In this document: piece by piece, positions 28,568 through 40,042 of the stretch
Layout: every line of letters starts with the position of its first letter
How positions within the stretch are numbered: position 1 is the first letter of the stretch
Assembly: GCF_024970185.1 (NCBI RefSeq)
Contig: NZ_CP103965.1
Location: 5,785,001-5,849,000, forward strand
DNA: 64,000 nt
Origin: Pseudomonas sp. N3-W
GTDB lineage: Bacteria; Pseudomonadota; Gammaproteobacteria; Pseudomonadales; Pseudomonadaceae
Direction of reading: 5' to 3'
Translations under genes and position numbers: made by a program
Notes under the pieces: generated by a model
Database searches by the model: none
Seen by the model: only the letters and a program-made list of their open reading frames with translations
Told to the model about the DNA's origin: nothing

Positions 28568-28572
28568 ATAGC

Positions 28573-28820
28573 TTTCGCGGGCAAGCCCGCTCCCACAGGG
28601 GGGGCCGTGTCGTGCATAAAGTCTGTGGTCGACATAGAGCCCAATGTGGGTGTGCAAGGCTTGAGAAATGGGGGACTGTTCGATAGCCATCGCGGGCTTG
28701 CCCGCTCCCACAGGGGGGTGGTGTCGGGCACGAATTATGCGGTCGACATAGAAACCAATTTGGGGGTGCAAGGCTTGAGAAATGGGGGACTGTTCGATAG
28801 CCATCGCGGGCAAGCCCGCT
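28573..28820. repeat. 114-bp REP-containing tandem repeat array, left part
   Basis: Repeat units of 114 bp each contain a REP core (CGCGGGCAAGCCCGCTCCCACAGG or its inverse-centre variant) followed by a conserved non-REP part (GTGTCGGGCACGAATTATGC...GACTGTTCGATAG). Two units are complete here; the third is cut at 28820 by the IS110 element. The first unit is the most diverged. Confidence 0.92.
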
Positions 28821-28844
28821 TGTGTCTAGATCAGGGGATAAACT
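28821..28844 (+). promoter_or_regulatory. Left-end half of a junction promoter
   Basis: When the element circularises, its right end (...ACAGTTG) joins CT and the left end (TGTGTC...). This creates TTGCTT, a 17-bp spacer and TAAACT (28839-28844), a plausible sigma-70 promoter starting near 28850, exactly where the predicted RNA begins. In the inserted form the -35 half is instead supplied by flanking DNA (CCGCTT), so activity should be lower. Inference from sequence and from known IS110 biology. Confidence 0.55.
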
Positions 28845-28848
28845 CTGA

Positions 28849-29005
28849 AGTGAGAGGGGTGGATGGCAAGCTGTGAGTCCGCGGTGCTTAAAGCACGAGT
28901 GGGAGCAAAGCTGCCATCCACCTTTCCACTCTGGCCCATAAGCCCGAACAGTTGAACGAGCGCCACTCGAATCACAAGCGTGGGCAAAGCCAGAGCGCTC
29001 TCACT
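28849..29005 (+). ncRNA. Predicted IS110 bridge RNA
   Basis: An 8-bp stem AGTGAGAG (28849-28856) with CTCTCACT (28998-29005) encloses two stem-loop domains. Target loop: stem GGTGGATGGCA/TGCCATCCACC (28858-28868, 28912-28922), with guides AGTCCGC (28876-28882) and GTGGGAGC (28899-28906) around hairpin 28884-28896; they match the REP target AGCCCGC (one G-U) and GCTCCCAC. Donor loop: stem CTCTGGC/GCCAGAG (28929-28935, 28989-28995), with guides ACAGTTG (28948-28954) and CACAAGC (28973-28979) around hairpin 28957-28969; they match the element's right end ACAGTTG and the junction GCTTGTG. Left guides copy the top strand and right guides complement it, as in the IS621 bridge RNA. Confidence 0.8.
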
Positions 29006-29028
29006 CATGAGTGTAAGAGGGTTTTGCC

Positions 29029-29946
29029 ATGATTTCCTGGGTCGGCATCGATATCTCTAAAACAAACCTCGTTGTCTGGGTTCAGCCACAGAACGAAGGC
29101 TTCGACGTTTCAAACACTTCGCAAGGCTTTGTTGAACTGATCGAGCATTTGAGTTGTTACGAGGTCGGTCGGATATTGCTGGAAGCCACTGGTGGCTATG
29201 AACGAAGGGTCATGGCGGCATTGCAAGGCGCGAACTTCAACGTGCTCAGGATCAATCCTCGTCGGGCCAGGGCCTTCGCTGTAGCAATGGGCAAGAATGC
29301 CAAGACCGACCCCATCGACGCGGCTGTTCTGGCTGATTTCGCCGAAGTCCTGCACGCGTCTCGTGACAAAGTCATTTCGCCTGAACGTGAAGCCCTGCGC
29401 GAGCTGGTTCAACTGCGCGAGCACTTTGTCCAGCAGCGGGACGATAACAAACGCAGGCTTCAGCAGGCTCAGCTGCCAACTGCAATCACAGCGATCAAAG
29501 AACATATTCGTTATCTGCAAACGCAGATCAAGCAACTCGAGAAAGCCATCAATCAAAGCATGCGCGACCTGGATGCAGAAAAAGCCGAGCGGCTGATTTC
29601 TGTTAAAGGCATCGGCACGGTGGCTACTGCCAGTTTGCTGGTTTACTTGCCCGAGCTCGGTGAGCTTGATCGCCGGGAGATTGCGGCCCTGGCGGGAATC
29701 GCACCCTACAATGACGACAGCGGCAATCACAGCGGAAAACGTCAGATCTTCGGAGGAAGAGCCCGAGTTAGACGTGCTCTCTACATGTCCTGCTGGGTCG
29801 TGATCCGCCATCAGGCAGATTTCAAGGCGCGCTATGAGGCTCTAAGGGAGAGAGGCAAGAGCGCGAAAGTCGCGCTCATCGCCTGCATGCGGATACTGCT
29901 GATCAGGTTGAATGCCATGCTGCGAGACGGCACCGAATGGCGGTGA
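29029..29946 (+). CDS. IS110-family transposase (DEDD recombinase)
   Basis: 305 aa. N-terminal RuvC-like DEDD domain with WVGIDISK (Asp8), LLEATGGYE (Glu52) and KTDPIDAAVLADF (Asp94, Asp97). A coiled-coil linker follows (about residues 115-185). The C-terminal Transposase_20 domain has ISVKGIGTVATASLLVYLPELG and LAGIAPYNDDSGNHSGKRQIFGGRARVRRALYMS, where Ser231 is the likely catalytic serine. Full length with no frameshift, so potentially active. AAGAGG precedes the ATG. The RNA guide is encoded just upstream. Confidence 0.95.
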   Translation: MISWVGIDISKTNLVVWVQPQNEGFDVSNTSQGFVELIEHLSCYEVGRILLEATGGYERRVMAALQGANFNVLRINPRRARAFAVAMGKNAKTDPIDAAVLADFAEVLHASRDKVISPEREALRELVQLREHFVQQRDDNKRRLQQAQLPTAITAIKEHIRYLQTQIKQLEKAINQSMRDLDAEKAERLISVKGIGTVATASLLVYLPELGELDRREIAALAGIAPYNDDSGNHSGKRQIFGGRARVRRALYMSCWVVIRHQADFKARYEALRERGKSAKVALIACMRILLIRLNAMLRDGTEWR

Positions 29947-29970
29947 CGAATGGTAGGGCCAAGACAGTTG

Positions 29971-30355
29971 CTCCCACAGGGGGGTGCTGTCGGGCACGAA
30001 TTATGCGGTCGACATAGAAACCAATTTGGGTGTGCAAGGCTTGAGAAATGGGGGACTGTTCGATAGCCATCGCGGGCAAGCCCGCTCCCACAGGGGGGCG
30101 GTGTCGGGCACGAATTATGCGGTCGACATAGAAACCAATTTGGGGGTGCAAGGCTTGAGAAATGGGGGACTGTTCGATAGCTATCGCGGGCAAGCCCGCT
30201 CCCACAGGGGGGTGGTGTCGGGCACGAATTATGCGGTCGACATAGAAACCAATTTGGGTGTGCAAGGCTTGAGAAATGGGTGGCTGTTCGATAGCTATCG
30301 CGGGCTTGCCCGCTCCCACAGGGGGGGCAGTGTCGGGCACAAATCATGTGGCTGA
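29971..30355. repeat. 114-bp REP-containing tandem repeat array, right part
   Basis: Continuation of the array: the remainder of the third unit, two complete units (phase marker CGATAG at 30061, 30175 and 30289, exactly 114 bp apart) and a partial last unit that diverges after 30340. Because 114 is a multiple of three, long open frames run through the array on both strands with 38-residue periodicity. They have no ribosome binding site and are not annotated as genes. Confidence 0.92.
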
Positions 30356-39729: not shown

Positions 39730-39755
39730 AAGGGGAGACCCGTCGGCCTCCCCTT
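39730..39755 (-). terminator. Intrinsic terminator on the minus strand without an assigned gene
   Basis: AAGGGGAG...CTCCCCTT hairpin. Read on the minus strand it is followed by TTTTTTATT, the usual U-tract. It lies upstream of the DUF6515 gene, so it must stop a transcript initiated further right, between 39756 and about 40020. Confidence 0.7.
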
Positions 39756-40042
39756 GAGAACTTCGTCCGTGCTCGACGCTTTTGACGTCGGCTCACCTCA
39801 CGCCGCCTTGTGGACAGTGTGTAGCTCGGGGGCCGGCTCAGCCCCTGTGGGGGGTGGCGACCGCAGCTGGCCTGATTGGGCGAGCCGCACTGGACTGTTT
39901 GTCCGAGCAGTGATTCTGGTGTTAATCATAGGCTTGAGGTGCCGGCAGCGGATTGCGAAGATTGCGTAAAGAAACACCACTTGCGCAATTTTTAACCCTG
40001 GATAGATAATCTGCCGCAATAGTTATGACAAAGGCCTGATTG
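39756..40042. other. Region with a possible minus-strand small transcript and Lrp-type half-sites
   Basis: No family-recognised gene. On the minus strand a 43-44 codon frame (start near 39929, stop at 39798) precedes the terminator at 39730 but lacks a good ribosome binding site. ATTGCG at 39952 and 39961 and the complement CGCAAT at 39984 and 40015 form an inverted set just before the AsnC-family gene. Confidence 0.4.

Follow-up and report, generated by a model that had tools for sequence, protein, structure and literature searches.

A predicted bridge RNA in the left end of an IS110-group insertion sequence from Pseudomonas sp. N3-W, with target guides that appear to change with their targets among its relatives

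Within the 64,000-nucleotide stretch of the Pseudomonas sp. N3-W chromosome analysed here (the window), an IS110-group insertion sequence carries in its left end what is almost certainly the gene of a bridge RNA of about 157 nt (28849-29005, plus strand). This reading, drawn from sequence comparison and modelling, is supported by the family of the element, the left-end place of the RNA, the order and polarity of its guides, its fold, a promoter-like circle junction and the covariation of guides with targets, and by the same comparisons the element can be regarded as one more bridge-RNA system, a new member of the kind to which IS621 and the predicted ISPpu10 RNA belong. Relatives that appear to have been re-aimed naturally offer ready-made pairs of guide and target around a CT core. 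The features of the element and its target site are as follows.

28821..29970, plus strand: IS110-group insertion sequence, between two CT cores (six host copies and copies within related genomes compared)
28813..28820, plus strand: left target half AGCCCG and core CT (sequence, copy comparison)
29029..29946, plus strand: recombinase gene tnp, 305 aa, with PF01548 and PF02371 (Pfam and PDB chain matches)
29964..29970, plus strand: right end of the element, ACAGTTG, the left donor in the circle (sequence, copy comparison)
29971..29977, plus strand: core CT and right target half CCCAC (sequence, copy comparison)

The element measures 1150 bp plus one CT core, which flanks it on both sides (28819-28820 and 29971-29972), and its natural target is AGCCCGCTCCCAC. 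In the host chromosome (6.67 Mb, one contig), six full copies all interrupt a REP at one position, with flanks AGCCCGC on the left and CTCCCAC on the right, and the 13-nt target is intact at 360 sites (0 for the reversed control). The tnp product scored above the curated cut-offs of both PF01548 (DEDD, 83.9 bits) and PF02371 (61.2 bits), and its residues 3-301 aligned with solved-structure transposases, namely the PDB chains of ISCro4 (113.3 bits) and IS621 (105.9 bits). The left end is long, and the bridge RNA region sits within the 208 nt that separate the left core from the tnp start codon; the right end is short, with 24 nt from stop codon to core, unlike in the IS1111 group, where the RNA is expected in a long right end behind tnp. 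The copy in the window stands inside a tandem array of 114-bp units with one REP per unit (28568-28820 and 29970-30348).

The predicted RNA gene comprises the following parts.

28849..29005, plus strand: bridge RNA gene, predicted (fold, covariation, guides)
28849..28856, plus strand: 5' arm of the closing stem, AGTGAGAG (sequence, predicted fold)
28876..28882, plus strand: left target guide AGTCCGC, its seventh base on the core (sequence, shuffles, relatives)
28899..28906, plus strand: right target guide GTGGGAGC (sequence, shuffles, relatives)
28948..28954, plus strand: left donor guide ACAGTTG (sequence, shuffles)
28973..28979, plus strand: right donor guide CACAAGC (sequence, shuffles, relatives)
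28998..29005, plus strand: 3' arm of the closing stem, CTCTCACT (sequence, predicted fold)

A sequence-only reading of the window had proposed one closing stem around a target loop and a donor loop, each with two guides, and this layout was borne out to the base. The two arms of the closing stem pair fully, both target-loop guides lie exactly where they had been placed, and the left target guide differs from its target at a single position, T for C, which gives the proposed rU:dG wobble. The left donor guide is the same as the last seven bases of the element, and the right donor guide complements GCTTGTG. Since the seventh base of the left target guide falls on the core C, the guide proper is 6 nt long (AGTCCG, left of the CT core), and in several relatives this core position is mismatched. 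The proposed agreement with IS621 in guide order and polarity also held, with guides on the 5' side of each loop directed to the bottom strand, those on the 3' side to the top strand, and CT as the core. As to the assertion that such matches would be hard to obtain by chance, 20,000 dinucleotide-preserving shuffles of 28849-29005, scored without any requirement on guide order, contained all four guides jointly in no case and three or more in one, and single guides were hit 2866 times (left target, one wobble allowed), 128 times (right target), 247 times (left donor) and 790 times (right donor). The predicted fold (-76.4 kcal/mol, z -5.6, with 0 of 200 shuffles as good) consists of two modelled arms within the 8-bp closing stem, each with an internal loop that bears one guide per side. 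The minus strand of 28849-29005 folds equally well, so folding cannot choose the strand.

Conservation of this fold was examined in relatives from a recombinase search of 398 Pseudomonas genomes, which gave matches in 57, with element ends set by comparing copies within each genome; relatives with species names were P. laurylsulfatiphila, P. palleroniana, P. orientalis and others. In an alignment of 24 of the 27 distinct bridge RNAs (A1; L005, L010 and L069 excluded, and L058 lacking a readable end), the structure including the closing stem was paired in 97.8% of 1085 cells, and pairing fell to 32-47% when the partners were slid. Changes on both sides occurred in 13 of 46 pairs (shuffled mean 5.2; 0 of 500 shuffles reached 13), and the fold of the bridge RNA thus shows compensatory changes across the 24 relatives. 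Within A1, no pair of the closing stem had both sides changed, and of the five covariation measures one, the count of additional pair types, did not exceed the shuffles (464 of 500 as high).

The same reading had named covariation of the target guides with the targets as a test, together with a refuting observation, identical target guides at unrelated targets. For Pseudomonas, 73 of 81 rows were used (8 with short flanks dropped; several rows are one copy fetched twice), falling into 13 guide/target classes with 10 distinct guide pairs, and among these 73 rows copies with one loop shared the REP site or a variant of it. When targets were permuted among the 10 guide pairs, the observed sum was reached in 3 of 100,000 permutations (p 0.00022 for the left guide by itself and 0.011 for the right). 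Individual cases illustrate the change: the target AATTCG-CTCCCAC in G018 faces the left guide CATTCG, the target CGCCCC-CTTCCTA in G161 goes with guides CGTCCC and the complement of CTTCCTA, the target AGCCCG-CTCCTAC in G363 has a right guide that complements CTCCTAC, and in L185 the left target has switched to AGCCAG. The wobble of guide T against target C is kept in all 36 rows of the window's clade and also in L005, and the guide T is retained in 6 of 6 host copies.

A larger switch appears in loops from the family of genome G409, for which "xanthomonads" serves here as a label resting on the Rfam sX15 match described below. In the relatives L134 and L135 from this group, the site consists of TAACGC to the left, CT as the core and GAATTAAGCCG to the right (L137 is the same except for GAGTT), and the loops of all three read ATAACGCCT and GTAATTCAGC, the two matching guides; in L137, CTGAGTT stands where the guide calls for CTGAATT, a single wobble. 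We take this TAACGC-CT-GAATTAAGCCG site, including the GAGTT form in L137, to resemble an integron attC half-site. At L143 the left side is GCGTCG-CT and the right side is CTCCTAC preceded by one extra A; the guides there are ATGTCG and a sequence complementary to CTCCTAC. With the L134 and L143 types added, the 11 distinct loops scored 57/66 on the left and 77/77 on the right, and 0 of 100,000 permutations reached the observed sum, which places it only below about 1e-5 and takes related loops as independent (right guide alone, 0.00025); adding L185 and L146, of which the left side only is known, gave 68/78, again with 0 of 100,000.

Loop registers in all guide-target tests were set by hand, and every permutation test includes related sequences. 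For the 11-loop test, loops were entered manually in register with the CT core, and each was paired with the target it most often faces; L069, which differs by a single base, was excluded, as were second targets where a loop is shared (G165; L023/L053/L116; L113), and L137 was pooled with L134 and L135 despite the one-base difference in the right target. The covariation count does not include L183 or L188, the latter with AGCGCG opposite AGCGCG by eye. For 40 loci, mostly with recombinases of 27-44% identity, no anchor was readable, and L005/L033, one host copy fetched twice, was left out of the anchor reading and its loop read separately. Several misfits were found: L058/L187 match at 3.5/6, G165 has the loop of G219 and sits at AGCCCC, in the AGCCCC clade L023, L053 and L116 (L053 and L116 being one place) are shifted in register by one base, and L057 and L183 look offset by one. 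Collectively, these comparisons indicate that a change of target is accompanied by a change of target guide, even where REP gives way to an attC-like site, with a few misfits.

As to the companion proposal that donor guides covary with the element ends, the right guide tracked the left end in the majority of xanthomonad loci examined. Most loci of this group combine the left end CTTATG with GATAAGC as right donor guide; L139, also from the group, has switched to CTTGTG with GACAAGC, as in Pseudomonas, and L143, L146 and L148 combine CTTGTG with ACAAGC; L136 (GATAGGC at CTTATG) and L144 (GCAAGC at CTTGTA) are partial fits only. The left donor guide ACAGTTG hardly varies and therefore gives no covariation evidence.

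Joining the right end, core and left end, as in an excised circle, creates a promoter-like arrangement around one further feature.

28839..28844, plus strand: -10-like hexamer TAAACT, whose partner TTGCTT is formed only in the circle (junction comparison)

All 29 distinct joined ends contained TTGSYT-17-TANNNT, with TTGCTT as the hexamer on the -35 side, or TTGGCT in G018 and G363, which have an extra G. By consensus the match is weak, at 6 to 8 of 12 bases (7 of 12 in the window). Because the script chose the best of spacings 16-18, a control with shuffled left ends was run (500 rounds), in which spacing 17 was best in 15.7 of 29 junctions on average and in at most 23; the mean junction score was 7.0/12 as compared to 6.2 with the left end shuffled (highest round 6.8). 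In 26 integrated left ends, with genomic flank replacing the right end, the score was 5.6, and in the integrated copy the CCG of the REP stands in place of TTG. A promoter scan of the integrated left end gave nothing at 9/12, a threshold that the circle junction would also miss. For IS621, the available part of the report describes a promoter formed by the joined ends, from which the bridge RNA is read out of the circle junction into the left end (PMC11208160).

On this evidence, the recombinase would excise the element as a circle, in which the joined ends would act as a promoter (TTGCTT, 17 bp, TAAACT) transcribing the bridge RNA. The recombinase would bind this RNA, the 3' domain of which would pair ACAGTTG and CACAAG(C) with the circle junction ACAGTTG-CT-TGTG, and strand exchange would take place at the CT core. 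Less certainly, the opposite strand may also be transcribed, from a start just before tnp, into an RNA like sX15 or Asr9, and such an antisense RNA may tune the bridge RNA, the translation of tnp or both.

As far as the available text on IS621 goes, the two systems share a recombinase with both Pfam domains, an RNA, here predicted, in the left end with the target loop before the donor loop, left guides for the bottom strand and right guides for the top strand, a CT core and a REP target, and the joined-end promoter of IS621 has a promoter-like counterpart here (PMC11208160). They differ in that the recombinase is distant (105.9 bits to PDB 8wt6) and the target is another one; the right guide of IS621 is described as 4 nt long (up to 7 in some orthologues), whereas that of the present element has 7 nt including the core; and IS621 is described with a separate 5' stem-loop, whereas none was seen here and the two domains lie inside one closing stem. 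ISPpu10 and ISPpu9 are likewise insertion sequences in REPs, from Pseudomonas putida, and were compared by their partial published descriptions only, in which a bridge RNA is predicted for the REP-borne ISPpu10. The ISEc21 seekRNA, in the portion of its report at hand, is similarly an IS110-type RNA upstream of tnp with both target-strand matches in the same order, and differs in that a 74-nt form is the abundant one (PMC11187229).

The strand opposite the bridge RNA holds two further features.

28844..29005, minus strand: match to Rfam RF02234 (sX15), on the strand antisense to the bridge RNA (score 61.7 bits, cut-off 55)
29010..29015, minus strand: -10-like hexamer TACACT before the antisense 5' end (leader comparison)

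The sX15 match, the only Rfam match in the element, covers the full model length near threshold, and all six host copies scored 55.3-61.7 bits. RF02234, catalogued as a small RNA of Xanthomonadaceae, thus resembles the present RNA in its full-length match here and at the homologous place in the G409 family, and differs in lying on the strand opposite the bridge RNA. A scan of 369 genomes of the class located sX15 in two of them, the host, with six places, and G409. In the family of G409, 19 of 119 genomes had matches at E 0.001, 12 of them above the Rfam cut-off. We fetched 30 of the 32 listed places and set aside L155, a weak match to the bridge strand at the place of L125. An IS110 tnp or a piece of one adjoined 21 of the remaining 29 sX15 loci, on the opposite strand in 21 of 21, and 11 of the 18 places above the Rfam cut-off stood beside an IS110 tnp. 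The other 8 loci had no adjacent tnp (L136, L140, L141, L142, L149, L151, L152 and L157); three of these stand at the end of a contig, and L151 is upstream of a further copy. A covariance model built from the bridge strand of Pseudomonas only (R1) found 13 of 15 given sX15 loci at E 0.01, on the recombinase strand (L140 had E 0.11 and L141 was missed). From the strands on which R1 and sX15 match, Rfam sX15 here is the reverse strand of an IS110 bridge RNA gene.

ISPpu9 has an antisense small RNA over its tnp leader: Asr9, of about 180 nt, is reported in the accessible part of its description as complementary to the 244-nt leader, very stable and 4.6 times more abundant than a second small RNA, Ssr9, and as raising tnp translation and, when overproduced, transposition (PMC8450116). 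ISPpu9 differs by an AG repeat and by Ssr9, no counterpart of which was seen in the present element; Ssr9 is described as flanked by the same end boxes as ISPpu9, with orphan copies outside REPs (PMC8450116, in part), and might represent a further bridge RNA, carried by a mini-element that uses a different target. The sX15 loci and Asr9 together suggest a conserved antisense RNA overlying the bridge RNA. A hexamer TAnAnT or TAnnAT, ending 5-9 nt upstream of the antisense 5' end by script count, precedes that end in 31 of 34 distinct readable leaders, as compared to a mean of 1.1 and at most 5 in 2000 composition shuffles, a contrast to be read with the pattern having been chosen after the leaders were viewed, the shuffles ignoring relatedness and the same bases lying in the tnp leader. 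The leaders derive from the stem motif found in 83 of 121 loci (23 distinct leaders; 38 loci skipped) and from 11 of 12 xanthomonad loci, which added one leader each. No -35 for the antisense RNA was recognised by eye, and the hexamer is a hint, not proof, of an antisense promoter. A link between sX15, Asr9 and bridge RNAs was not found in the open-licence literature searched.

The antisense material bears directly on what the structure is for. In the account proposed in 2021 for ISPpu9, it would be only a translation-control leader of tnp that an antisense RNA opens, with no guide function; the 244-nt 5'-UTR of ISPpu9, the effects of Asr9 on tnp translation and transposition (PMC8450116, in part) and the position of the present structure directly before tnp all agree with such a leader. 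However, a leader has no reason for loops that track changing targets, the ISPpu9 study predates the bridge-RNA papers, and both roles can coexist, and we consider a leader without a guide very improbable. Much the same low credence attaches to a working guide on the opposite strand, as an RNA like sX15 or Asr9. Such a guide would accord with the minus-strand-only match of Rfam sX15 and the equal folding of both strands, and an antisense copy of the guides would also complement the target strands, but the loop order and polarity described for IS621 are those of the plus strand here, the promoter-like junction directs the plus strand in 29 of 29 cases, and the IS621 bridge RNA is, in the available text, transcribed from the circle junction into the left end (PMC11208160).

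That the guide matches arose by chance, or echo the REP sequence around them, seems to us extremely improbable. REPs are abundant nearby, with 114-bp tandem units on either side, and the left-guide pattern alone occurs 53 times on the plus strand of the window; yet the four guides never appeared jointly in 20,000 shuffles, and the guides of relatives track targets other than REPs. A plus-strand bridge RNA is accordingly the preferred reading.

We further propose, tentatively and with somewhat more doubt than confidence, that, for this IS110 branch, the bridge RNA gene is a two-strand gene, overlapped along its full length by a stable antisense RNA that, as its counterpart, would control the frequency of guided insertion. 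On this proposal, which we lean slightly against, the antisense RNA would be Asr9 in ISPpu9, sX15 in the xanthomonads and a transcript from 29005 down to 28844 in the present element, with a conserved promoter in the tnp leader. If so, the bridge RNA would be the very structure proposed to block tnp translation in ISPpu9, and sX15 an antisense bridge RNA that has outlived its transposase in some xanthomonads. The antisense overlap would then add a layer missing so far, in which the guide RNA is itself controlled, and it would trace a catalogued small-RNA family plainly to a transposon.

L140 and L141, from two genomes of one genus in the G409 family, have near-identical close flanks with no tnp found beside the locus, and L140 lies between genes that by eye look like those of a Tex-like S1 protein and a hybrid histidine kinase; the two loci may be either bridge-RNA relics or a kept RNA gene. 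In the 398 Pseudomonas genomes, R1 gave matches in 38, and its score of 177.5 bits at the window is high by construction because the model includes the window's own sequence. A search of these genomes for free-standing bridge RNA genes made no case for a kept guide gene: among 30 fetched R1 loci, four gave no tnp by tblastn (L179, L183, L188 and L190), two gave only fragments of it (L185 and L189) and two a broken or incomplete tnp (L184 and L187); contig ends truncate the short loci L179, L183 and L190, and L188 is whole with an incomplete donor arm. A tandem pair at L177 (G265) was rejected, having N at the joint and looking like an assembly join.

The host genome also holds remnants of right and left ends, in which a search with R1 (L027, L028 and L029) gave no match. 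L027 and L028 retain only 71 and 57 nt, respectively, of the right end. At L029, at about position 500 on the minus strand, 18 nt of the left end are joined directly to the REP flank at a common CAGGGG, a scar suggestive of a deletion of the element between short repeats. Elsewhere in the window, the Pseudomonas small RNA P24 (RF00629) is found at 39732-39988 on the minus strand, with a score of 238 bits.
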